Shown here in pieces: positions 1 through 9,954 of a stretch of 64,000 bases of DNA. The stretch lies in NCBI RefSeq assembly GCF_900091415.1, contig NZ_FMHU01000002.1, positions 3,348,001-3,412,000 of the forward strand, given 5' to 3'. The notes beneath the pieces were generated by a model, which saw nothing but the letters and a program-made list of their open reading frames with translations, was not told the DNA's origin and did not search any database. The stretch's first letter is position 1. Each line of letters opens with the position of its first letter. Made by a program: the position numbers and the translations under genes. The DNA is from Micromonospora inyonensis (lineage in GTDB: Bacteria > Actinomycetota > Actinomycetes > Mycobacteriales > Micromonosporaceae).

Positions 1-522
1 GCCGTGCAGGGCCCGCTGACCGCGCTGGAGGTGGCGGTCTCCGACGCCGCCCGGACCGACGGCGACCTGCTGGTGGTGGACGGTCCGTTGCGTGCCCGAC
101 GGCAGTTGCCCCGCACCCTCGGGTATGTCAAGACGCAGCACAGCCAGTACCTCGACGCCCGGCTGACGGCGGTGGTGACCGGCCTGGCGCCGGGGCAGCG
201 CTGCCCGGTGTTCCGACTGCGGGTGGGCACCGGCTGGGGCGGCTGGTCGTGGTATCTGCGGTTGCCGGTGGCGCGGGGTGCGCCGTGGGCGGGCATCGTG
301 CGGGTGGAGTGCTCACCGGACCTGGATCCGGCCGACGCGATCGCGCTCGCCGACCTCTCCCTGGTCACCCTCCCCCGGTTCGCCTCCACCCCGTACAAGG
401 ATCCGCGCGCCCCGCAGAACCTCGTCCCGATCGCCGGCCTGGAACGCCGGTTGCGCGCCCTGCTCGGCGACGCCCGCCTGCTGCACCGCGCGCTCTCCGC
501 CGCCGCCCGCCGCCGCCGCTGA
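1..522 (+). CDS. Conserved protein, C-terminal part (partial, possibly NurA-like)
   Basis: The reading frame is open from the first base, so this is the C-terminal 173 residues of a longer protein and the GTG at 4 need not be a start. The visible part has an acidic D-G-P-L motif followed about 15 residues later by a GYVKTQ segment. This order recalls NurA-type nucleases (acidic active site, then GxVK), but I cannot confirm the fold. It ends in an arginine-rich tail, 35 bases before the next gene on the same strand. Confidence 0.55.
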   Translation, partial: AVQGPLTALEVAVSDAARTDGDLLVVDGPLRARRQLPRTLGYVKTQHSQYLDARLTAVVTGLAPGQRCPVFRLRVGTGWGGWSWYLRLPVARGAPWAGIVRVECSPDLDPADAIALADLSLVTLPRFASTPYKDPRAPQNLVPIAGLERRLRALLGDARLLHRALSAAARRRR

Positions 523-557
523 CCATCGGGGCGCGGGCGGCGGGGATACTGGGCCGC

Positions 558-1415
558 ATGGGGCGTAGGCGGGGCGAGGACCGGGTGGTCGAGCGGGTCG
601 ACACCGGTGAGGCCGAACTGCTGCCGGACGCCGACCGCCCCGGGTCGTGGACCCTGCTGCTGGACGGGGCACCGCAGTCGCACGTCGACCTGACCGACCC
701 GACCCACCTGGAGTTCGAGTACGTGCGCCGGCTCGCCGCCGCGCTGGATCTGCTCGCCCCGGCCGGCGTACCGCTGCGGGTGCTGCACCTCGGCGGCGGC
801 GCGCTGACCCTGCCCCGCTACCTGGCGGCCACCCGGCCCGGCTCGGCGTCACGGGTGGTCGAGGTGGACGGCGCGCTGGTGGAGCTGGTCCGCCGGGCCC
901 TGCCCTGGCCGGCGCAGGCCCGGATCCGGGTCCGGGTCGCCGACGCCCGCGAGGTGGTCGCCACCACGCCGGACGCCGCGTACGACGTGGTCGTCGCCGA
1001 CGTCTTCGCCGGTGCCCGCACCCCGGCACACCTGACCTCGGTGGAGTACGTCGCCGAGGTGGCCCGGGTGCTGCGGCCGGGCGGCTGGTACCTGGCCAAT
1101 CTGGCCGACGGTCCGCCGCTGCGGTACGCCCGCGCCCAGGTGTCCACGGTCCGGACCGTGCTGCCCCGGGCCTGCCTGGTCGCCGACGCGGCGGTGCTGC
1201 GGGGCCGCCGGTACGGCAACCTGGTGCTGGTCGCCGGCCGGGAGGATCCGCCGGTCGCGGCGCTGACCCGGCGGGCCGCCGGAGACTGGTTCCCCGGACG
1301 GGTGGTCGCCGGGGCGGAGCTGGACCGTTTCGCGAGCGGCGCGACGGTGGTCCGGGACGCCGGGGCGACCGCGTCCACGCCACCCCCGCCCGGGATCTTC
1401 TCCGTTCGTCGGTGA
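558..1415 (+). CDS. Spermidine synthase-like class I methyltransferase-fold protein
   Basis: 285 residues. A Rossmann-type SAM-binding core is visible: VLHLGGGALTLPRYL (motif I), VVEVD (acidic end of strand 2) and VVADVFAG (motif of strand 4). This is the pattern of fused-MFS/spermidine synthase-like proteins in actinomycetes. True polyamine synthesis is not shown; many such proteins have no known substrate. The frame extends upstream, but the ATG at 558 avoids overlap with the previous gene and gives the family's usual N-terminus. The coding region ends 5 bases before the left boundary repeat of the integrated element. Confidence 0.8.
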   Translation: MGRRRGEDRVVERVDTGEAELLPDADRPGSWTLLLDGAPQSHVDLTDPTHLEFEYVRRLAAALDLLAPAGVPLRVLHLGGGALTLPRYLAATRPGSASRVVEVDGALVELVRRALPWPAQARIRVRVADAREVVATTPDAAYDVVVADVFAGARTPAHLTSVEYVAEVARVLRPGGWYLANLADGPPLRYARAQVSTVRTVLPRACLVADAAVLRGRRYGNLVLVAGREDPPVAALTRRAAGDWFPGRVVAGAELDRFASGATVVRDAGATASTPPPPGIFSVRR

Positions 1416-1419
1416 CCTG

Positions 1420-1436
1420 CTCGATGCGAACTGGCG
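1420..1436. repeat. Left att-core direct repeat
   Basis: CTCGATGCGAACTGGCG, identical to 8466-8482. In reverse complement it contains TTCGCATCGAG, the anticodon loop plus the 3' anticodon-stem strand of a tRNA-Ala(CGC). The rest of a tRNA is absent at this end, as expected if the element used a short core match rather than a complete tRNA gene as its target. Confidence 0.7.
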
Positions 1437-1467
1437 ACGAGTCGGTCAGCTCGGGTGTCGTCCGAGG

Positions 1468-1707
1468 TCATCCGGCCCGCTGAGGGTTGTCCCGGTCGGG
1501 TTCGGGCGGCTCGGCTGCTGCACTCCGCTGCTGTACTTCTTCGGCGGTGCGGAGGACGTTCCGGGCGGCGGTCGCCACCGGGCAGCCTGCGACTCGGCAG
1601 ATCGGGCAGCGTCCGTCGGGTCCGGGTCGGTGGTCGCGGAGGACCCAGCGGGCGGTGAGGATCAGCCGGTTACGGATCTGGGTCAGGGACAGGAACGGCG
1701 CGGTCAT
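1468..1707 (-). CDS. Small Cys-rich protein of unknown function
   Basis: 79 residues, with a CPIC...GCP arrangement (residues about 34-42) that could bind a metal, and a basic N-terminal half. Its start lies 2 bases beyond the stop of the upstream XRE regulator, so the two are probably cotranscribed. The C-terminal codons overlap the 1514-1536 repeat, which may be an integrase arm site. I do not recognise the family; similar short proteins accompany XRE regulators in actinomycete elements, but the role is unknown. Confidence 0.55.
   Translation of the reverse strand: MTAPFLSLTQIRNRLILTARWVLRDHRPGPDGRCPICRVAGCPVATAARNVLRTAEEVQQRSAAAEPPEPDRDNPQRAG
1514..1536. repeat. Candidate integrase arm-type site, left
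   Basis: Contains two direct 10-bp units, GCTGCTGCAC (1514-1523) and GCTGCTGTAC (1527-1536). Bases 1516-1536 recur identically at 8364-8384. The site lies about 79 bp inside the left att core, nearly the same distance as its partner from the right core (about 81 bp). Symmetry around the core is what arm-type integrase sites show; the function is inferred. Confidence 0.5.
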
Positions 1708-1709
1708 CC

Positions 1710-2912
1710 TCAGCCCACCCCGAGAGTGGCGGCGAGTTGGACGAGCGTCGTCGGGGCGGCGGGGTCACGGGCGACCAGGGCGAGCACGTCTCGGCCGGCT
1801 GGTCGGTGGCGGATCTCGGCGGGTGCGATCCGGTCGGCCTCGATCAGGACCCGGCCGGCGTTGATCGGGTCGTCGACCTGGAGGTACGCGCGGGCAGCGT
1901 CGACCAGGTACGCGGCACGGTGTTCGGCGGGCAGCCACCGCCAGCCGTCCCGCTTGATCGCCTTCTCGTGCCGGGCCACGGCCTCCTCCGCGTCGCCCTG
2001 TTCCACCGCTGCGGTGATCCGGGCAAGCTCCACCGCCGTCGGTCCGAACCCGGTCCGGTGGTGGTCGTGACCGTCCCCCACCCGGGCAGCCATCTCGGCG
2101 GCCTCGTCGATCAGCTCGGCGGCGGTGCGGTCGTCCCCGTCGCGGGCGGCGGCCAGGGCGGCCTGCACCAGCAGGGTTCCGCACAGGGACAACTCGGCCG
2201 GGTCGACGAACTCGGCCACCGGCGGAGCGATGCGGTACGCGGCGGCCAGCATCACCGACTTCGCCACCCGCACCCGTCCCGAAGCACGCAACACCTGACC
2301 GAGCTGCACCGCAGCAGCAGCCACCAACCCCCGGTCACCGGTAGCAGCGGTCATCGCCCGGTCGACGGCCAGCCACGCCACATCGGGGGCACCGAGCTTC
2401 ACCGACAGCGCGGCCGTCACCCGGTACGCCTCCACCAGCGGCACCCGACCCCTGCCGGGATCGTGAACGTGGGTGCGCTGCGCGTCGGCCACCAACTGCG
2501 GCAGCAGGTCGACCACCTGCGGGTAGCGGGCGTGCTGGAAGGTGGTCCACAAGTGGGCTACCTCCCGCGCCAGCCTCTCAGCCGGCAGCACAGGGCGGCG
2601 GGCTGCCGGCCGTTCCAACGCGATCTCGTACGTCGACAGCGCCGCCCGAATCCGCTCGACACCCCCGGCACGCTCGGTCACCCCGGCCGGCTTGGCGTCC
2701 CGGCCGAGTAGCACCGCCGTGTCGATCCGCAGGACCGCAGCGACGTCCTGGAGGATCGACACCTTGTCCAGCGACCGAACACCCCGCTCCACCTTGTCGA
2801 CCCAGCTCTTGGACTTGCCGAGCCGGTCGGCGAACACCTGCTGCGACAGCTTTCGCCGGCCCCGCCAGTACGCCACCCGGCGACCGATCGGCAACAGATC
2901 AGTGCTGTCCAC
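1710..2912 (-). CDS. XRE-family helix-turn-helix regulator with long helical C-terminal domain
   Basis: 400 residues, GTG start. An N-terminal XRE/Cro HTH (residues about 8-65) shows LSQQVFADRLGKSKSWVDKVERG, i.e. recognition helix then the usual GxRSL turn. The remaining 330 residues are Ala/Arg-rich helices resembling the TPR-like sensor region of Streptomyces-type XRE regulators. The upstream small gene (2899-3063) overlaps its start by 14 bases and the downstream one follows after 2 bases, so the three form an operon. It is similar in layout to the broken regulator at 3231-4346. Ligand and target promoter are unknown. Confidence 0.8.
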   Translation of the reverse strand: MDSTDLLPIGRRVAYWRGRRKLSQQVFADRLGKSKSWVDKVERGVRSLDKVSILQDVAAVLRIDTAVLLGRDAKPAGVTERAGGVERIRAALSTYEIALERPAARRPVLPAERLAREVAHLWTTFQHARYPQVVDLLPQLVADAQRTHVHDPGRGRVPLVEAYRVTAALSVKLGAPDVAWLAVDRAMTAATGDRGLVAAAAVQLGQVLRASGRVRVAKSVMLAAAYRIAPPVAEFVDPAELSLCGTLLVQAALAAARDGDDRTAAELIDEAAEMAARVGDGHDHHRTGFGPTAVELARITAAVEQGDAEEAVARHEKAIKRDGWRWLPAEHRAAYLVDAARAYLQVDDPINAGRVLIEADRIAPAEIRHRPAGRDVLALVARDPAAPTTLVQLAATLGVG

Positions 2913-3063
2913 GACGCCACCGCCGGTCCGGTACCGCCCGCGTAGTCTCCTCAGCCGGTATTCGATCCGCCTCAGCCTCCGCGAGAATCCGCTGCCGGGC
3001 AGCCTCCCGCTCCGCTGCCTGGATCTGCTCGCCTCGGCTCTCGGACGGAGCGTCCTCGCTCAT
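2899..3063 (-). CDS. Small charged protein preceding the XRE regulator
   Basis: 54 residues starting at ATG 3063, rich in Glu, Arg and Ala (EQIQAAEREAARQRILAEAE), probably one long helix. I chose this start because GGAGGT sits 5-6 bases upstream; a longer form from 3141 is possible. The 3' end overlaps the regulator start by 14 bases, suggesting translational coupling. The family is not recognised. Its charge and position suggest a small partner of the regulator, but this is a guess. Confidence 0.45.
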   Translation of the reverse strand: MSEDAPSESRGEQIQAAEREAARQRILAEAEADRIPAEETTRAVPDRRWRRGQH

Positions 3064-3230
3064 CCCTACCTCCGCTGGTAGGGGCGCGCCGGCGTGCTCT
3101 GAAAGGACCGACACCACCGCGCCCGGCTCCAAGCGGGTCACGCATTCTCGGTACTGATGACCGTGGCGAACCCGCCCTGGTCACAGCATCGGGTGATCAG
3201 CCGGTCACATTCCAGGTAGCACGCGTCCGG

Positions 3231-4346
3231 TCACTTGTCCATGGACGCGGACAGGTTGCGGACAAGGGCGGACAACCGGCTGGACCGGTTTCGGGCGGCG
3301 ATACATCGGGCTCGCTCCACCGACTGGGCTGCGCTGTCGCGTTCACCGATGGCTAGCTGTGCACCGGCGAGGTGGCACACGTACGTGCCGGTCCAGTCGG
3401 CCGAAGCCGAGTCGGCATCCAACCCGTCGAGACCGGCGGTCAACAACTCCACCGCCTACTCGTGCTGTCCGAGCGCGGCCCGGGTGGTGCCGGCCTCCAG
3501 GTCGAAGAACGCTCGGTCCCGGTAGTAGTCCCACGGCGGCATCTCGCCCTTGTGCTCCAGCGCGGCTATCGCCCGCTCGTCGGCCGCCACCGCCGTATTG
3601 ATCGCCGCCTGCCGGTCGTCAGCGAGGACGCATGCGCGGGCAAGCTGGTAATGGTCGTACGCGAGTTGCCCCGGCGACATACCCGGCCTGGTCAGCGCCG
3701 CCCGGGTCACGCCGAGCAGGGCACCGATGTCCCCCGTCTGCCCGGCCAGATCGGCGCGGAAGGACAGCACCGTACCCAGCAGCGCGTCATGCCCGCTCTC
3801 GACGGTCCACTCCAACGCCTGATTCAGCCAGTGCCGCGACCAGCCATGATCACCGGCGGCGATACCCAACCAACCGGCGAACTGCGCCCACTGCGCAGCC
3901 TGATCGATCAACCGGCTCCGTAGATCGTCGTGCGCCTCGCGGGCCAGATGGCTGACGAGATCCAGGTTCGCCTGGACCGCCGGCATGACAGCGGCAGCAC
4001 CAAGAACATCGTCAAGACGACGTTGACTCGCCAGGAGATCCGCGAGCGCGTCGACCGTAGCCGGATCAGTCCGCATCGGATGACGAGCAGCGAAGGCGAT
4101 CCGATCAGCACCGTCGCCCGGCAACTCGGGCGGACGCGCCAACGCCATCAGCCGGCCATCTGCGGTAAGAGCGTCATCCAGACGCCTCGCCACGTCGTCG
4201 CTCGGCTGCCGTCGCCCTGCCTCCAGGTCGTGAAGCTGACTCTTGCTCTGGTACACCACCTGCGCGAGAGCGCGAAGCGAAATCCTCGCTTCCGTACGCA
4301 GCCGGCGAAGCTGGGCACCGAAACGTGGGTCAGCGATGGGCGACAC
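3231..4346 (-). pseudogene. XRE-family regulator interrupted by an in-frame amber codon
   Basis: The 5' part (4346 to 3459, 296 codons) encodes an XRE HTH (RRLRTEARISLRALAQVVYQSKSQ region, residues about 13-60) and a TPR-like sensor domain. A TAG at 3456-3458 follows GQHE. The same frame then continues AVELLTAGLDGLDAD...ASMDK to a TGA at 3231. TPR regulators normally read HEQAVELL here, so a single CAG-to-TAG change explains the stop. The truncated product would lack its last 74 residues, about one and a half TPR repeats, and could still be partly functional. Readthrough or a sequencing error cannot be excluded. Confidence 0.75.
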
Positions 4347-4841
4347 AGCGTACTCCCAGGTAGAGGGCTGGGGCGGCGGTCCCGCCGGCCTCTACCCCGA
4401 CGGGCCGCCACATCGGACAGTACACCTGCGCTCCACGCTACGTAATGCCGCGCGCCGCCCACGCCGAGGAATCACTTGGCGTTGAACTGTTGCCGGGTGC
4501 CAGGCGGGCAAAGGATGCCTATCGCCCGCTTGAGTTGCGCAAATACCAGGCATCGATCGCTGCCGTTGGGCATCATTGGTCGACGTTCCACGGCCTGGCG
4601 ACGGCCTAGACTCCTTGACCCCCAGGCAACCAACACGGGACGCTGACCTGCGGATCCGAAGCCGCTGAACTGCCAGGCCCATCCCCCAGCGTCCGTGACA
4701 GTCCGCCGGTGTCCGTCCCGATCGTCACCCAAATAGTCACCCAACTGTGCCGGGAGCCTGCGAGCGGACCGGAAGGGCTCGCCAATGACCTGTACCGGTC
4801 GCTCACGCTGGCGGGGGTCAGGCCCAGGGCCCGCGTCCAAA
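4347..4841. other. Gene-free stretch upstream of the broken regulator
   Basis: About 495 bases between the start of the XRE pseudogene and the end of the GNAT gene. Several short frames exist on the minus strand, but none has a recognisable domain, a good ribosome site or the codon bias of neighbours. The regulator promoter must lie in its left end. I see no tRNA, strong hairpin or repeat. Confidence 0.5.
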
Positions 4842-5342
4842 TCATGAGATGGCCCGGCGCATCCTGATGTTGTACGCGTCGAATCCGTGCTCCTGGAAAA
4901 ACCGCCCAGCCGCTTCGTTGAAGGACCAGAAGTCCAGCCGTAGGTCCTTCAAACCACGACGGCGAGCCTCCTCCTCCGCAGCAGCCATCAATGCCCGACC
5001 CACGCCACGCCGACGCGCCGACTCGGCTACCGCAAGGTGATGGATGTACAACATTCCAAACGCCTCAGTAAAAGGGTTGTCGCGCCGACGCGTCTCCTCG
5101 GCGGTGAGGTAGCCGACTACGTGATCGCCAAGCTCCGCGAGAAGTATCACCATGTCGGCCCGCTGGAGCTGTCCACGGAAGAACTCGGCCGCTGCCGCAG
5201 CATCCGGTGCCTTGAACTCGGCAGGCTCGGCATCTGAATGTAACTGCTGCACCAAGCCGTTCAGCTCGCCTAAGACGTCTGCGTCTGCCAGCTTGCCCCT
5301 TCGAACACGGACGGCGGTGCGAATAAGTCGATCTTCATCCAT
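4842..5342 (-). CDS. GNAT-family N-acetyltransferase
   Basis: 166 residues. The acetyl-CoA binding motif A is clear: LYIHHLAVAESARRRGVGRALMAAAEEEARRRG (Q/RxxGxG/A region, residues about 106-138), followed by FNEAAGRFFQEHGFDAY, the motif B region before the last strand. Length is normal for the family. The substrate cannot be told. It sits alone in the element with about 500 gene-poor bases on both sides, so it looks like an accessory cargo gene. Confidence 0.8.
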   Translation of the reverse strand: MDEDRLIRTAVRVRRGKLADADVLGELNGLVQQLHSDAEPAEFKAPDAAAAAEFFRGQLQRADMVILLAELGDHVVGYLTAEETRRRDNPFTEAFGMLYIHHLAVAESARRRGVGRALMAAAEEEARRRGLKDLRLDFWSFNEAAGRFFQEHGFDAYNIRMRRAIS

Positions 5343-5840
5343 GGCATGATCCTGCCCCGGAAGTCATGCCGCCGGCCACCCCGTTCGTCACTGCATGCGA
5401 TTCCATCCCGTCTACCGTCAACCCGTCCTCTTGGGGAGCGGGCCACCGCCCGGCCCTCCGCGTCAAGCAAGCCTTGACGCAGGTCGTGGCCTTCGGGCCT
5501 GGTGCTGGCTGGTCATGGACGCACAGGCAACACGGCCAGGCTCTGCAACGGACCTCCGCTGGCCGGTGTTGACCGCTGCATCGGGCACGGATCGGGCACG
5601 GGCTCAGGTGGGGGCTGAGGCTTGAACCTGAACCCCTTCGGCGGTGTGCTGATCGACTCCAACGGGCGGACCGGCCGCCTGACCTCGGCGATTTCTATCA
5701 CTGCCTTACTTACAGCGGTTTACAGCTCTTGTCGGCGTCACTTGTACCCGTTGATCTTGTCTGAGGTCACTGCTATTGCCGCCCAGATCACTACCGGGCA
5801 CGCTGTCGGCCATGAATCACGACGTCTCTTCGTTGCCAAG
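5343..5840. other. Gene-poor stretch between GNAT and VOC genes
   Basis: About 500 bases with no convincing gene. The part from 5690 to 5830 is clearly lower in GC than the chromosome and carries two close copies of TTACAGC (5710-5716 and 5720-5726). A minus-strand frame at 5513-5701 and the plus-strand extension of the VOC frame to 5622 are both unsupported. It may be debris of earlier recombination. Confidence 0.45.
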
Positions 5841-6221
5841 ATGGAGTTGCCGATGCCCCCACAACTGAAGCTCACGGCAATAACACTCGACTGCCCGGAT
5901 CCGTGGATCTTGGCCGCCTTCTACCAGCAGGCCACCGGACTCGACATCGACGCCAAGTCCGACGACGACTTCGTCGGACTGCTCGGCGAAGGCGAACTCT
6001 TCATCGGCCTGCAACGGGTCGACGACTACCAGGCGCCGAGTTGGCCCGATCAACGTGTGCCGCAGCAGCTTCACCTTGACTTCGCTGTCGACGACCTCGA
6101 CGAGGCCGAGGCCCTGGTCCTGGGGCTAGGCGCGACCAAGCCGGAGACTCAGCCGGGTAGCGACCGATGGCGCGTCTTCCTCGACCCGGCCGGACACCCT
6201 TTCTGCCTGGCGAGAAGCTGA
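5841..6221 (+). CDS. VOC-superfamily (glyoxalase-like) protein
   Basis: 126 residues in one vicinal-oxygen-chelate unit: LTAITLDCPDPWILAAFYQQATG at the start, FVGLLGEGELFIGLQRVDDY in the middle and FLDPAGHPFCLARS at the end, as in single-domain glyoxalase-like proteins. The frame is open from 5622, but the family begins at the KLTAITLDC segment, so I chose ATG 5841 (ATG 5853 is the alternative). Substrate unknown. It is cargo of the integrated element. Confidence 0.75.
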   Translation: MELPMPPQLKLTAITLDCPDPWILAAFYQQATGLDIDAKSDDDFVGLLGEGELFIGLQRVDDYQAPSWPDQRVPQQLHLDFAVDDLDEAEALVLGLGATKPETQPGSDRWRVFLDPAGHPFCLARS

Positions 6222-6598
6222 GCCTGATGAATGCGAACCGGACCTTGACGGCCCGTACGGACGCTGCCGGACAGAGTGAGTCGGCTCTCGTGTCACGGAC
6301 CTCGCCCCCGGCGGACACCGCCACAGTGGCGCAGTTGACCCAACCTCGCCCGACACGGACCCGGCTCCCGGGGTCGAAGCTGGCCACCGGTGGCCGCCCC
6401 TCCCCCTCCCAGGTGAGCAGTTGACCTGACCCTGAGCGGTTGGGGAGCCGACTCCTGGACGACCAGCATGCCGCGCGCGGCCACCGCCCCCATGTTCGGG
6501 GCTTGCCGCGCGGACCCGGCGCGTCCTTTCCTGCGTCGCGCTGCTCAGGCGCGGCGCGGCCGGCTGCCGGCGACGAACCTCCACCACTCTCCCCGACT
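6222..6598. other. Degraded sequence upstream of the integrase remnant
   Basis: About 375 bases where the N-terminal part of the integrase would be expected. Translating all frames, I find only the last residues before the preserved part: RLGT in one frame, then PVEPRNF in the next, which suggests another frameshift near 6605-6610. Nothing else in the stretch resembles an integrase or any other gene. Confidence 0.4.
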
Positions 6599-6875
6599 CG
6601 GCACCCGGTCGAGCCGAGGAACTTCCACCGGGAGTTCAAGACCCGCTGCCGCAAGGCCGGCGTCCGTGAGATCTCCGTGCACACCACCCGCCGCACCTGC
6701 GCGTCCCTGCTGGTCGCCCTCGACGTCCACCCCCGGGTCACCATGCAGATCCTCCGGCACAGCCAGATCGTCGTAAACCATGAACATCTACAGCGAGGCC
6801 ACCTCGGCGGCCACCCAAGCCGCACTCAAGCGCCTCGGCCAGCAGTTGAACACGAACGATGATGAGCAGTCCTGA
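6599..6875 (+). pseudogene. Tyrosine recombinase (phage-type integrase), C-terminal remnant with frameshift
   Basis: The C-terminal catalytic domain is recognisable: PVEPRNFHREFKTRCRKAGV, then HTTRRTCASLL (the HxxR box), then QILRHSQIVV (the second conserved His). At the A-run 6775-6777 one extra base shifts the frame. Reading on from 6780 in the next frame gives MNIYSEATSAATQAALKRLG and a stop at 6875, containing the nucleophile Tyr. The Tyr is therefore out of frame with the HxxR box, and the first two thirds of the protein are missing, so the enzyme cannot be active. This is the integrase expected for the element. Confidence 0.8.
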
Positions 6876-6959
6876 GGTTGCTTGACCGGACTGCTCGCTC
6901 TCAGCGCCGCCGGAGTCGAACCTGATAGCGCGTCTGGTCGGCACGCTCCCACCGGTAGT

Positions 6960-7949
6960 GAGGTGATCTCAGCAACGCATAAGGGTTGATTGGCGCGACA
7001 CGGTCGAAGGCGGCGAGTCGGGCGGCAGTGGATACAGGCGTGGAGCCATCGATAGACAGGTTCTTGCGACAGATCCACGTCTTCGAGAGGGCTCCACGTG
7101 ATTGCCTATCGTGCCATGGTCGACGTCCCGAGGGAACTCGTGCAGCACGTGGCGCGTCTGCTGTACGCGCAGCGCCGGGCCTGCGGCACCCGTCGGGGCG
7201 CGCGGGCGTTGACCTGCTTCTACCAGGCCCTGATGGTGCTGGTCTGGTTCCGCAAGGGTGAGGACATGACCCTCCTGGCCGCCGGGTTCGGCATCTCCCG
7301 GGCGACCGCCTACCGCTACCGCGACGAGGGCGTCACGGTCCTTGCCGCCCAGGCGAGCGATCTGCACACCGCGCTGCGTCGGGCCGCCGCCGACGGCTGG
7401 TCGCACGTGATCCTCGACGGCAAGCTGTTCGACTGCGACCGGGTCACCGAGACGACCCTGTCGGTCAAGGGTGAGGTGATCGACGCCTGGTTCTCCGGAA
7501 AGCACCGCGACTTCGGCGCGAACATCCAAGCCGTCATGCGCCCGGACGGGCTGCCAATCTGGACATCGGCGGCGATGCCGGGGCATCTGCACGACACCAG
7601 TTGCGCCCGCGACCGGGGCGTCACCGCCGCCCTGAACTGGTCCGCCGCCGAGCTGGGCCTGCCCGCTCTGGCCGACTCCGGCTACGAAGGCGCAGGCCAC
7701 GGCATCAAGACCCCCGTCAAGCAACCCGCCGACGGCCACCACCTCGCGCCCGACAACCGTGCATACAACAGACTGCTACGCGGCCTGCGTTGGCAGGGAG
7801 AACGCGGCTTCGCCATCCTCATCGGACGCTGGAAGACGCTACGCCACACGACCATCAGCCCACGACGAATCGGCGACATCATCGCAGCCGCGCTACACCT
7901 GACCCATTTCGAATACAAATACCTACCGCAAGGTTGTTGAGATCACTTC
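6960..7949 (+). mobile_element. IS5-family insertion sequence, complete, 990 bp
   Basis: Ends are imperfect inverted repeats: GAGGTGATCTCAGCAAC at 6960-6976 against GAAGTGATCTCAACAAC (reverse complement of 7933-7949), 15 of 17 identical. A 3-bp direct duplication AGT flanks it (6957-6959 and 7950-7952), as expected for an IS5-type transposition. One intact transposase gene fills most of it, and the transposase stop codon lies within the right terminal repeat. Intact ends and target duplication suggest a fairly recent insertion. Confidence 0.88.
7098..7940 (+). CDS. IS5-family DDE transposase
   Basis: 280 residues, GTG start. An N-terminal helix-turn-helix region (FGISRATAYRYRDEG) is followed by a DDE_Tnp_4 (HARBI1/IS5-like) catalytic domain. 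The first Asp lies in HVILDGKLFDCDR, the second in LPALADSGYEG, and the Glu in LRWQGERGFAILIGRWKTLR. Length is normal and no frameshift is seen, so it is probably functional. The coding region ends inside the right inverted repeat of the element. Confidence 0.88.
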   Translation: MIAYRAMVDVPRELVQHVARLLYAQRRACGTRRGARALTCFYQALMVLVWFRKGEDMTLLAAGFGISRATAYRYRDEGVTVLAAQASDLHTALRRAAADGWSHVILDGKLFDCDRVTETTLSVKGEVIDAWFSGKHRDFGANIQAVMRPDGLPIWTSAAMPGHLHDTSCARDRGVTAALNWSAAELGLPALADSGYEGAGHGIKTPVKQPADGHHLAPDNRAYNRLLRGLRWQGERGFAILIGRWKTLRHTTISPRRIGDIIAAALHLTHFEYKYLPQGC

Positions 7950-8361
7950 AGTGCACCTCTTGAATCTGCCGGTCGTTCCCATACAGGGCAACGAACGCAA
8001 GATCACCCAAGTGTTCCAAGGCTCCCCGATGCTGCTTCGCCTCAAGCACATCAGCAATGCCGCCCAAATAGTTGGTCGCGTCCGACGGCGGCTCGGTCGG
8101 GCTCTCCAGCGAAACATCCAGCGTGAGCGGCCCGTCCGGAAAGAGCGGTTTCTGCCCCTCGCCGACGGCCTCTCTTGCAGCTCGGAGCAGTGCTAACACG
8201 CGGTCGGCGTAGACATGACCAGAGGCGAGCATCGACTTGGCTTCATTCTTGGCCGGAGGTAGTCCCTGCACCACGAAGCTGATTTCAGTCATCGCCACAC
8301 TCTCTGCCTTCATCGGCAGCGCTTCAAGTGCGGCGGCCTGTCGGGTCAAGGCGACAACCTT

Positions 8362-8384
8362 GTTGCTGCACTCCGCTGCTGTAC
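8362..8384. repeat. Candidate integrase arm-type site, right
   Basis: GTTGCTGCAC (8362-8371) and GCTGCTGTAC (8375-8384). Bases 8364-8384 are identical to 1516-1536 and in the same orientation. It lies 81 bp inside the right att core. The pair brackets the element symmetrically, the layout of arm-type sites for a tyrosine integrase. Confidence 0.5.
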
Positions 8385-8393
8385 AAGATCGGA

Positions 8394-8426
8394 AAAGGCC
8401 GTCTCCGACTACCGGAAACGGCCTTT
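8394..8426 (-). terminator. Hairpin terminator following the tRNA-Ala 3' half
   Basis: AAAGGCCGT (8394-8402) pairs perfectly with ACGGCCTTT (8418-8426) around a 15-base loop. On the minus strand it directly follows the tRNA-like 3' end (7 bases away) and ends in TTT, so it looks like the tRNA gene's own terminator carried along with the attachment site. Confidence 0.65.
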
Positions 8427-8432
8427 GAACTG

Positions 8433-8476
8433 GGTGGAGCTGAGGGGATCTGATCCCCTGCCCCCCTCGATGCGAA
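8433..8476 (-). pseudogene. 3' half of a tRNA-Ala(CGC) gene (attachment site)
   Basis: Read on the minus strand: anticodon loop TTCGCAT (anticodon CGC), 3' anticodon-stem strand CGAGG, 5-base variable loop GGGGC, T arm AGGGG-ATCAGAT-CCCCT, acceptor strand CAGCTCC, then A-CC. All lengths fit tRNA geometry exactly. The T loop has A where TTC is expected, so it is decayed by one base. The 5' half is absent; the sequence beyond the anticodon loop is the shared att core and chromosome. An integrative element that normally targets tRNA-Ala carries such a 3' half in its attP. Confidence 0.7.
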
Positions 8477-8482
8477 CTGGCG
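8466..8482. repeat. Right att-core direct repeat
   Basis: CTCGATGCGAACTGGCG, identical to 1420-1436. It spans the tRNA anticodon loop and the first bases of the chromosome side. Everything to its right (from about 8483) resumes ordinary high-GC core sequence leading into the AlkA-like gene. Confidence 0.7.
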
Positions 8483-8536
8483 GCGAGCCGGACCGGTGCC
8501 ACCGGCAGTCGGCGCAGGCCGTGGCAGAGTGGCCCG

Positions 8537-9439
8537 GTGACCTGCACCCGGATCCTTCGTCCGCCGCCGGAGCACCGGCTCGCCGAGACCGTACGGGCGC
8601 TGACCTTCAGCCCGTACGACCCGTGCGCCCGGATCGCCGCCGGGGCGTTCTGGTGGGCCACCCGCACCCCGGACGGACCGGCCACCCTGTGCCTGCGCCG
8701 GCACGACGGTGACCTGCTCGCCGAGGGGTACGGGCCGGGTGCCGGCTGGGTGCTGGAACGCGCCGACGCGGTCGCCGGGCTGCGGGACGACCTGACCGGC
8801 TTCGCCGACCTCGCCGGCCAGCACCCGGTGGTGTCCCGGCTGGCCGCCGGGCACCAGGGGCTGCGGATGCCGGCCACCGGCCGGGTCTTCCGGCAGTTGC
8901 TGCGGACGGTCTGCGAACAGAAGGTCACCGGCAAGGAGGCGTACCGGGCCTACGCGGCGATGGTCCGGCACTTCGCCGAGCCCGCACCGGGGCCGTTCCC
9001 GCTGCTGATGCCGCCCGACCCGGCGGCGGTGGCTGCCGCGCCGTACTGGGTGTTCCACCCGTTCGGGGTGGAGCAGCGGCGGGCCGAGACGCTGCGCCGG
9101 GTCGCCGCCCTGGCCGACCGTCTGGAGGCGTGCGCAGACGCCGCCGAGGCGACCCGGCGGTTGACCGCGATCCCCGGCATCGGCCCGTGGAGCGTCGCCG
9201 AGGTGATCCGGATCGCGTACGGCGACCCGGACGCGGTGAGCGTCGGGGACTACCACGTCCCGAACACGGTGAGCTGGGCGCTGGCCGGTGAGGCGCGCGG
9301 GGACGACGCCCGGATGCTGGCCCTGCTGGAGCCGTTCCGGGGACACCGGGGGCGGGTCTGCCTGTTGCTGGCCACCGGGGGCGTGCACGCGCCCCGCTTC
9401 GGGCCGAGGATGCCGCTGCGCTCGTTCGCGACCTACTGA
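8537..9439 (+). CDS. DNA-3-methyladenine glycosylase II-like (HhH-GPD) protein
   Basis: 300 residues, GTG start. The helix-hairpin-helix and catalytic loop are clear: LTAIPGIGPWSVAEVIRIAYGDPDAVSVGDYHVPN, with the Gly/Pro-rich hairpin and the catalytic Asp in VGDYH. This matches AlkA-type glycosylases that remove alkylated purines in base excision repair. The N-terminal 120 residues would be the AlkA beta domain. It is the first core gene to the right of the integrated element. Confidence 0.88.
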   Translation: MTCTRILRPPPEHRLAETVRALTFSPYDPCARIAAGAFWWATRTPDGPATLCLRRHDGDLLAEGYGPGAGWVLERADAVAGLRDDLTGFADLAGQHPVVSRLAAGHQGLRMPATGRVFRQLLRTVCEQKVTGKEAYRAYAAMVRHFAEPAPGPFPLLMPPDPAAVAAAPYWVFHPFGVEQRRAETLRRVAALADRLEACADAAEATRRLTAIPGIGPWSVAEVIRIAYGDPDAVSVGDYHVPNTVSWALAGEARGDDARMLALLEPFRGHRGRVCLLLATGGVHAPRFGPRMPLRSFATY

Positions 9440-9444
9440 CCGGG

Positions 9445-9954
9445 TCAGCCGGCCCGGCGGCAGAGCCGACGCAGGGTGTACGCCAGCCAGCGGGCGTACC
9501 CGTGCTGGAAGGCCCGCCCGGCGGGGCCGGCCGCCCGCATGATCCAGCGGTCCGGGCGGCTGAACGCGCGGATCTCGAACCAGACCCGACCCGCGTCGTC
9601 GCGTTCCACCACGAACGCCTCCTCGCCGCACGCCGGGTGGCCGGGGAGCGTGCCGTACCCGAAGCCGATTTGGCGGTCGTCGTCGACGGCCCAGACCACC
9701 TCGCACGGGGCGTCGAGCCGCAGCGGGCCGACGCCCAGCCCGGAGGTGACGGCGACGCCCGGGGCGGCACGTGGCGCGTCGGCGGTGATGCGGACCCCGG
9801 CGGCGCGGTGCAGCCGCCAGGTGAGCACGGCCGCGCCCGCGACCGCGAAGCAGCCGTCGGGAAGCCGGACCCGGTGCCGCACGTGCCGCCAGCCCGCCGG
9901 CAGGTCCCCGGTGCGGGTGGCCCCGACGTGCGGATAGGTCAGCGACACGGGCAC
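9445..9954 (-). CDS. DUF1990 family protein
   Basis: 169 residues. The pattern LTYPHVGATR at the start, GFGYGTLPGHPACGEEAFVVER in the middle and FSRPDRWIMRAAGPAGRAFQHGYARWLAYTLRRL at the end is characteristic of the actinobacterial DUF1990 family. Its function is not established. It converges on the glycosylase gene with only 5 bases between the stop codons. Confidence 0.82.
   Translation of the reverse strand: MPVSLTYPHVGATRTGDLPAGWRHVRHRVRLPDGCFAVAGAAVLTWRLHRAAGVRITADAPRAAPGVAVTSGLGVGPLRLDAPCEVVWAVDDDRQIGFGYGTLPGHPACGEEAFVVERDDAGRVWFEIRAFSRPDRWIMRAAGPAGRAFQHGYARWLAYTLRRLCRRAG

Follow-up and report, generated by a model that had tools for sequence, protein, structure and literature searches.

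Among the described systems closest to the present locus is ICEBs1 of Bacillus subtilis, an element with a tRNA-specific tyrosine integrase that can be stranded at non-tRNA sites and whose att geometry, a 7-bp spacer between 5-bp inverted repeats, is the same as here. According to the available portions of PMC3715440, secondary sites of ICEBs1 match poorly (up to 10–12 of 17 bases) and excision from them is reduced. Those were laboratory events, mostly in attB-less cells and with mismatched ends where the spacer differed (same portions of PMC3715440), whereas the insertion described below is natural, occurs in two species, is decayed and has identical cores. The second attB of SGI1 is likewise an intergenic secondary site with tandem arrays, although SGI1 is a different element whose primary site is the protein gene thdF (PMC2297512, in the portions available). 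For AICEs, the accessible parts of PMC3218068 report that close relatives among the integrases occupy different tRNA genes, that elements can stand in tandem, and that two elements lie without a detectable tRNA, which was ascribed to tRNA remnants.

The locus lies in a 64-kb stretch of Micromonospora inyonensis DNA (64,000 nucleotides in all; hereafter the window). It is probably the remains of a pSAM2-type, tRNA-Ala(CGC)-specific element that integrated at a secondary non-tRNA site, grew into a tandem array, was stranded there and decayed. The parent type resembles pSAM2-type AICEs in having RepSA, Xis and Int in that order beside the tRNA end and an att site in the tRNA 3′ end; the window copy, by contrast, has a remnant of the integrase only and sits at a non-tRNA site. 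As far as the accessible parts of PMC3218068 go, the case belongs to a kind already described there, and this instance is new: a literature search at title and abstract level, with subscription journals mostly outside its reach, returned no tRNA-Ala elements of Micromonospora. From left to right the element consists of core, left end, 21-nt repeat, 79-aa ORF, XRE1, NsdA-family regulator, cargo, integrase remnant, insertion sequence, open frame, second 21-nt repeat, terminator, tRNA half and core, and its features are as follows (window coordinates, strand).

558..1415, +: left flanking gene, spermidine synthase/methyltransferase-like (Pfam PF01564, 28.7 bits)
1420..1431, +: left 12-bp core, corresponding in reverse complement to the anticodon loop and part of the anticodon stem of tRNA-Ala(CGC)
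1432..1457, +: element left end after the core, resembling 14 other left ends (two from G137)
1468..1707, −: 79-aa open reading frame of the left-end module
1516..1536, +: 21-nt direct repeat, left copy, perfect, ∼80 bp inside the left core
1710..2912, −: XRE1, intact 400-aa XRE-type regulator (HTH_31, from domain search)
3456..4346, −: NsdA-family XRE/TPR regulator, 296 aa, ended by an in-frame stop (371-aa form in G137 and G143)
4842..5342, −: GNAT acetyltransferase, cargo (PF00583)
5853..6221, +: glyoxalase-like protein, cargo (PF18029)
6605..6854, +: C-terminal remnant of a tyrosine integrase in two frames, matched to the G131 tRNA-Ala integrase
6959..7950, no strand assigned: IS5-family insertion sequence with 18-nt terminal inverted repeats (89%); transposase at 7098–7940 (+)
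7948..8313, −: part of a longer open frame (7948–8934) that leaves the element; no family match
8364..8384, +: 21-nt direct repeat, right copy, perfect, ∼80 bp inside the right core
8393..8427, −: tRNA-type terminator hairpin carried by attP, of the same kind as that behind the intact tRNA-Ala gene
8433..8476, −: tRNA-Ala(CGC) 3′ half, identical at 41 of 44 nt to the intact gene of the same genome (contig C1)
8466..8477, +: right 12-bp core, from repeat search
8478..8491, +: putative left-end remnant right of the core, from the left-end profile, read as a tandem-junction relic
8537..9439, +: right flanking gene, AlkA-like (HhH-GPD; 20.7 bits, below the Pfam cut-off of 26.2)

An earlier note, made from the letters of the window, had described a decayed element of ∼7 kb between spermidine synthase-like and AlkA-like genes, bounded by a perfect 17-bp direct repeat whose left copy has only the core and whose right copy is fused to a tRNA-Ala(CGC) 3′ half with its terminator, in a chromosome with no full tRNA on either side. 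This anatomy was borne out. The repeat, CTCGATGCGAACTGGCG, has two exact same-strand copies in the 64-kb window (1420–1436 and 8466–8482), between genes that end at 1415 and start at 8537; the 6.92-Mb genome contains no other exact copy, and one further place in it has two mismatches. With up to three mismatches allowed the window count stays at two (0.52 expected), a number that 8 of 100 window shuffles reach, yet the genome has only these exact copies and a core arisen as a chance word was rejected; nor is the repeat the frequent word that the note had considered. Similarity between the two ends spans 33 nt at 85% identity, and its tRNA part is confined to 12 bp, which in tRNA-Ala(CGC) cover the 7-nt loop between 5-bp arms. 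On folding, the anticodon arm formed as expected from the tRNA, while neither window junction formed such an arm. No tRNA half adjoins the left copy, and ARAGORN reported no tRNA in the 64-kb window or at either element end. Two of the three mismatches between the 3′ half and the intact gene sit in the T loop, and the half is therefore drifting.

Within the element, the tyrosine integrase beside attR is reduced to its C-terminal remnant, the NsdA-family regulator is truncated, and neither a RepSA-type initiator nor Xis was found by tblastn in window positions 1–9600. Autonomous excision or transfer is therefore unlikely, to judge from gene content. No FtsK/TraB domain (PF01580) occurs inside the six element intervals searched (the present genome, G000, and G131, G085, G137, G115 and G143), so a pSAM2-type integrative element fits better than a conjugative one and conjugation by a translocase of its own is not supported. 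A search of a plasmid collection with positions 1420–4500 returned no match. The IS5-family transposase carries DDE_Tnp_4 and reaches 107 bits against NF033581, below the cut-off of 140. The 21-nt direct repeats, similar forms of which lie near the element ends of relatives, are probable integrase arm-binding sites. The 79-aa ORF, which had no family match in Pfam, NCBIfam or PADLOC, accompanies XRE1 in 13 of the 18 loci examined, a set obtained for the most part through the left-end module itself.

Relatives hold the parent type at the tRNA gene. The note had envisaged an attP carrying a tRNA-Ala(CGC) 3′ end that entered a non-tRNA site, and had proposed looking for the same element in the tRNA-Ala(CGC) genes of relatives; elements of this type were indeed present there in G131 and G085. 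That of G131 (L148) is 11.46 kb long, with cores at 4639 and 16098, is bounded by a displaced tRNA-Ala 3′ half and an intact tRNA-Ala(CGC) gene, and carries RepSA (477 bits), an excisionase-like Xis and Int at the tRNA side. In G085 (L138/L149) the cores lie 23.8 kb apart on one contig, the second within the intact tRNA-Ala gene. Full-length tyrosine integrases are found in G131, G085 and G143. At the DNA level the window's integrase remnant is 93% identical to the G131 and 87% to the G085 integrase, compared with 71–75% for elements at tRNA-Pro, -Val and -Lys where matched and no match in two of these loci (L033, L036); against the G131 tRNA-Ala integrase the protein identity is 97% over 58 aa and 88% over 26 aa. 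The right end (8360–8482) is 88–92% identical to Ala-type ends and 69–70% to Val-type ends, with no match among the Pro or Lys ends compared. By DNA identity, then, the remnant's integrase and att right end group with the tRNA-Ala(CGC) elements. XRE1 was absent from the three tRNA-Ala loci compared (G131 L148, G085 L138/L149 and G137 L145); in one named relative (L190) it adjoins a tRNA-Ala att end. The tRNA-Ala(CGC) loci of the present genome, G137 and G131 (L144, L145 and L146) have an arm-type sequence resembling GTACAGCAG beyond the terminator of the intact gene, which suggests present or past occupation of the primary tRNA-Ala site.

The closest relative found, G137, is occupied at the same site, with flanks 91–95% identical to the window. 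Three cores lie between its flanks (L024, positions 4930, 7208 and 17950), delimiting a unit A of 2.3 kb and a unit B of 10.7 kb; the middle core has a tRNA-Ala 3′ half before it and an element left end after it, and the two units are therefore in tandem. Unit A is filled by a 694-aa protein with a NACHT domain (L024:5111–7195; 34 bits), possibly a defence-type cargo, that no PADLOC model matches. Window positions 1420–4506 are 91.8% identical to unit B. The dS values between window and G137 were 0.31 for XRE1 (unit B), 0.18 for the NsdA-like regulator and 0.14 for the flanking gene, with a dN/dS of 0.22 for XRE1; because XRE1 exceeds both the regulator and the flanking gene, simple vertical descent fails for some segments. 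Part of the element, not all of it, would fit descent from one insertion common with G137.

Sequence to the right of the right core points to a tandem arrangement in the window as well. A 14-nt profile was built from 14 other left ends of the family, whose members score 8.9 to 18.8. Positions 8478–8491, which read TGGCGGCGAGCCGG, score 17.7, and no other of the 127,972 window positions on both strands reaches this score; for comparison, the left end of the window's element gives 11.2 and the right flank of G137 −20.5. Given this fit, the 17-bp repeat would consist of the 12-bp core plus left-end bases at both ends, and since such bases lie right of the right core, a relic tandem junction is the best reading of the right boundary. 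Sequence of the chromosome common to the window and G137 resumes within CGGACCGGTGCC, near 8489–8492. To this extent the note, which had held both ends to be exactly marked by the repeat, requires correction.

Insertion of just one copy, with attL and attR exact and TGGCG at both ends being the chromosomal target's own match, would account for the perfection of the 17-bp repeat and implies an empty site reading ...TGGCGGCGAGCCGGACCGG.... We consider it unlikely, as the 14 nt right of the core score like true left ends at that one position in the window, the right flank of G137 does not fit the profile, and G137 has a tandem array.

Empty sites were sought in 160 genomes of the genus, the present one included, with the joined flanks as query and counts taken among the matches listed. 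The flanks match end to end without the element in at least 9 of the 160, and the spermidine synthase/methyltransferase-like gene is syntenic in G137 and in the empty-site relatives. The nearest empty site among the matches listed is that of G132, where the flanking genes are adjacent at 88%; in other genomes with both flank matches listed these are mostly 2.4–3 kb apart, with G147 and G148 at 8–9 kb. The 12-bp core is missing from all 9 intergenic regions (best 4–7 mismatches in 12, no better than shuffles), contrary to the note's prediction of an empty site reading through one core copy. It follows that the original target either was a poor match or has since drifted.

These sites also bear on the possibility that a genuine second tRNA-Ala(CGC) gene once stood here, was entered in the normal way, and later lost its 5′ half and the displaced 3′ half to decay. 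There is precedent in the tRNA remnants proposed as integration sites of two actinobacterial elements (PMC3218068, in the parts accessible), and when the window is aligned to three tRNA-Ala loci by lax BLAST, the match extends 20–31 nt beyond the core, to 8502–8513, into the 5′ half. A 5′ half hidden right of 8482 was nevertheless rejected, its score being no better than that of shuffles (p 0.17 and 0.29 for two lengths in the window, 0.59 in G137). The left flank is without a displaced 3′ half in both the window and G137, the core is in none of the 9 empty sites, and the G132 site points against such a gene, albeit in an intergenic region that has diverged. Together we judge a former tRNA gene quite improbable.

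Transfer of the segment from a tRNA-Ala locus by homologous or IS-mediated rearrangement, for which one might cite the IS5-family element inside and the short element-like sequence past the terminator of the genome's own tRNA-Ala locus, is very improbable in that both ends lie at core sequences in the window and G137, the IS is internal, and relatives carry tRNA-Ala-like halves at a further non-tRNA site.

Secondary integration followed by tandem growth, the reading we prefer, would run as follows. An element with a tyrosine integrase, an excisionase and a RepSA initiator, specific for the anticodon stem-loop of tRNA-Ala(CGC), would have recombined its attP by means of the integrase with a poorly matching non-tRNA sequence between two chromosomal genes before the split from G137, and further copies would have joined it at the cores to form a tandem array. 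Excision from secondary sites is poor, as known for ICEBs1, so the array would have been stranded and inherited vertically. During decay rep, xis and most of int may have been lost, an IS5-family element inserted near the integrase remnant, one regulator truncated, the tRNA half allowed to drift and neighbouring units of the array deleted; the order of these losses and their timing are likewise our reconstruction. What remained here would be one shortened unit and, from the left end of another, ∼14 bp. Several observations run against this account. With no core in the 9 empty sites the ancestral attB lacks documentation; a mismatched attB should give differing crossover bases at the two ends, and the cores of window and G137 are identical; the window's own left end fits the profile less well than the right-flank remnant does; and the dS of XRE1, its absence from three tRNA-Ala loci and the lax BLAST extension past the core have to be set beside these.

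The left end is one of a family. A scan of genome contigs yielded 415 relatives of XRE1, of which 80 were kept, all titled Micromonospora or Verrucosispora, and the first ∼480 bp of the element match many places across 151 genomes. Twelve of 14 large loci examined match the left part over at least 1.3 kb. Among 11 oriented loci, six pair an intact tRNA at their far end with a left-end core that corresponds to the anticodon loop of that tRNA, which is tRNA-Pro(CGG) in L027, L031, L032 and L036, and tRNA-Val(CAC) in L033 and L034. At a tRNA-Lys(TTT) locus (L029) the left-end match is less clear, and L025, L026, L028 and L030 had no tRNA within the stretch examined. Fourteen left ends share a TGGCGGC-like sequence after the anticodon-loop GAAC, and family left ends after the core read TGGCGGC[GA]..[GC]CGG or similar. 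A survey of the 80 named loci with a strict pattern gave 16 matches and 64 loci without a left end; two matches (L237, L247), ∼1.3 kb away and without family sequence, were dropped as chance, and after exclusions the cores were of Pro type in 5, Val type in 7 and Ala type in 2.

Other sites in the family were also noted. L200 combines an Ala-type core and a family left end with a flank that has no displaced tRNA 3′ half, and is another candidate secondary insertion. In the present genome a second XRE left-end module (L026, C2:1982541) has its left end next to a GC-rich hairpin and not a tRNA core. At a second non-tRNA site, tRNA-Ala(CGC)-like 3′ halves occur in G044, G147 and G085 and a core followed by CCCC in G032 (L150–L153); halves and core abut the terminator hairpin of another conserved gene, these being 4 cases among 21 of 30 matches. 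This site was not accepted as proof, with the cores of G147 and G085 altered and left ends not found there. CTCGATGCGAACAGGTG, present seven times in G148, was set aside, as its ∼160-nt flanks resemble each other and hold no tRNA half.

The locus would thus offer a natural case, in two species, of a tRNA-specific element stuck at the wrong site and decaying there, as the laboratory work on ICEBs1 predicts, and it can be compared with the parent type, with a tandem array and with sites free of the element. More tentatively, and with some doubt, the family may keep its left end and half-site (TGGCGGC...) nearly constant while exchanging the other half, that is, the anticodon loop and tRNA 3′ half, together with the integrase. 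If so, one backbone would switch between tRNA-Ala, -Pro, -Val and perhaps -Lys, and stranded secondary-site arrays such as the present one, along with the second site found in four relatives, would have arisen as by-products of that switching or served as stepping stones for it. With integrases that are related yet differ in tRNA target, and with one half-site that hardly varies, the family would be useful for testing how integrases change target.
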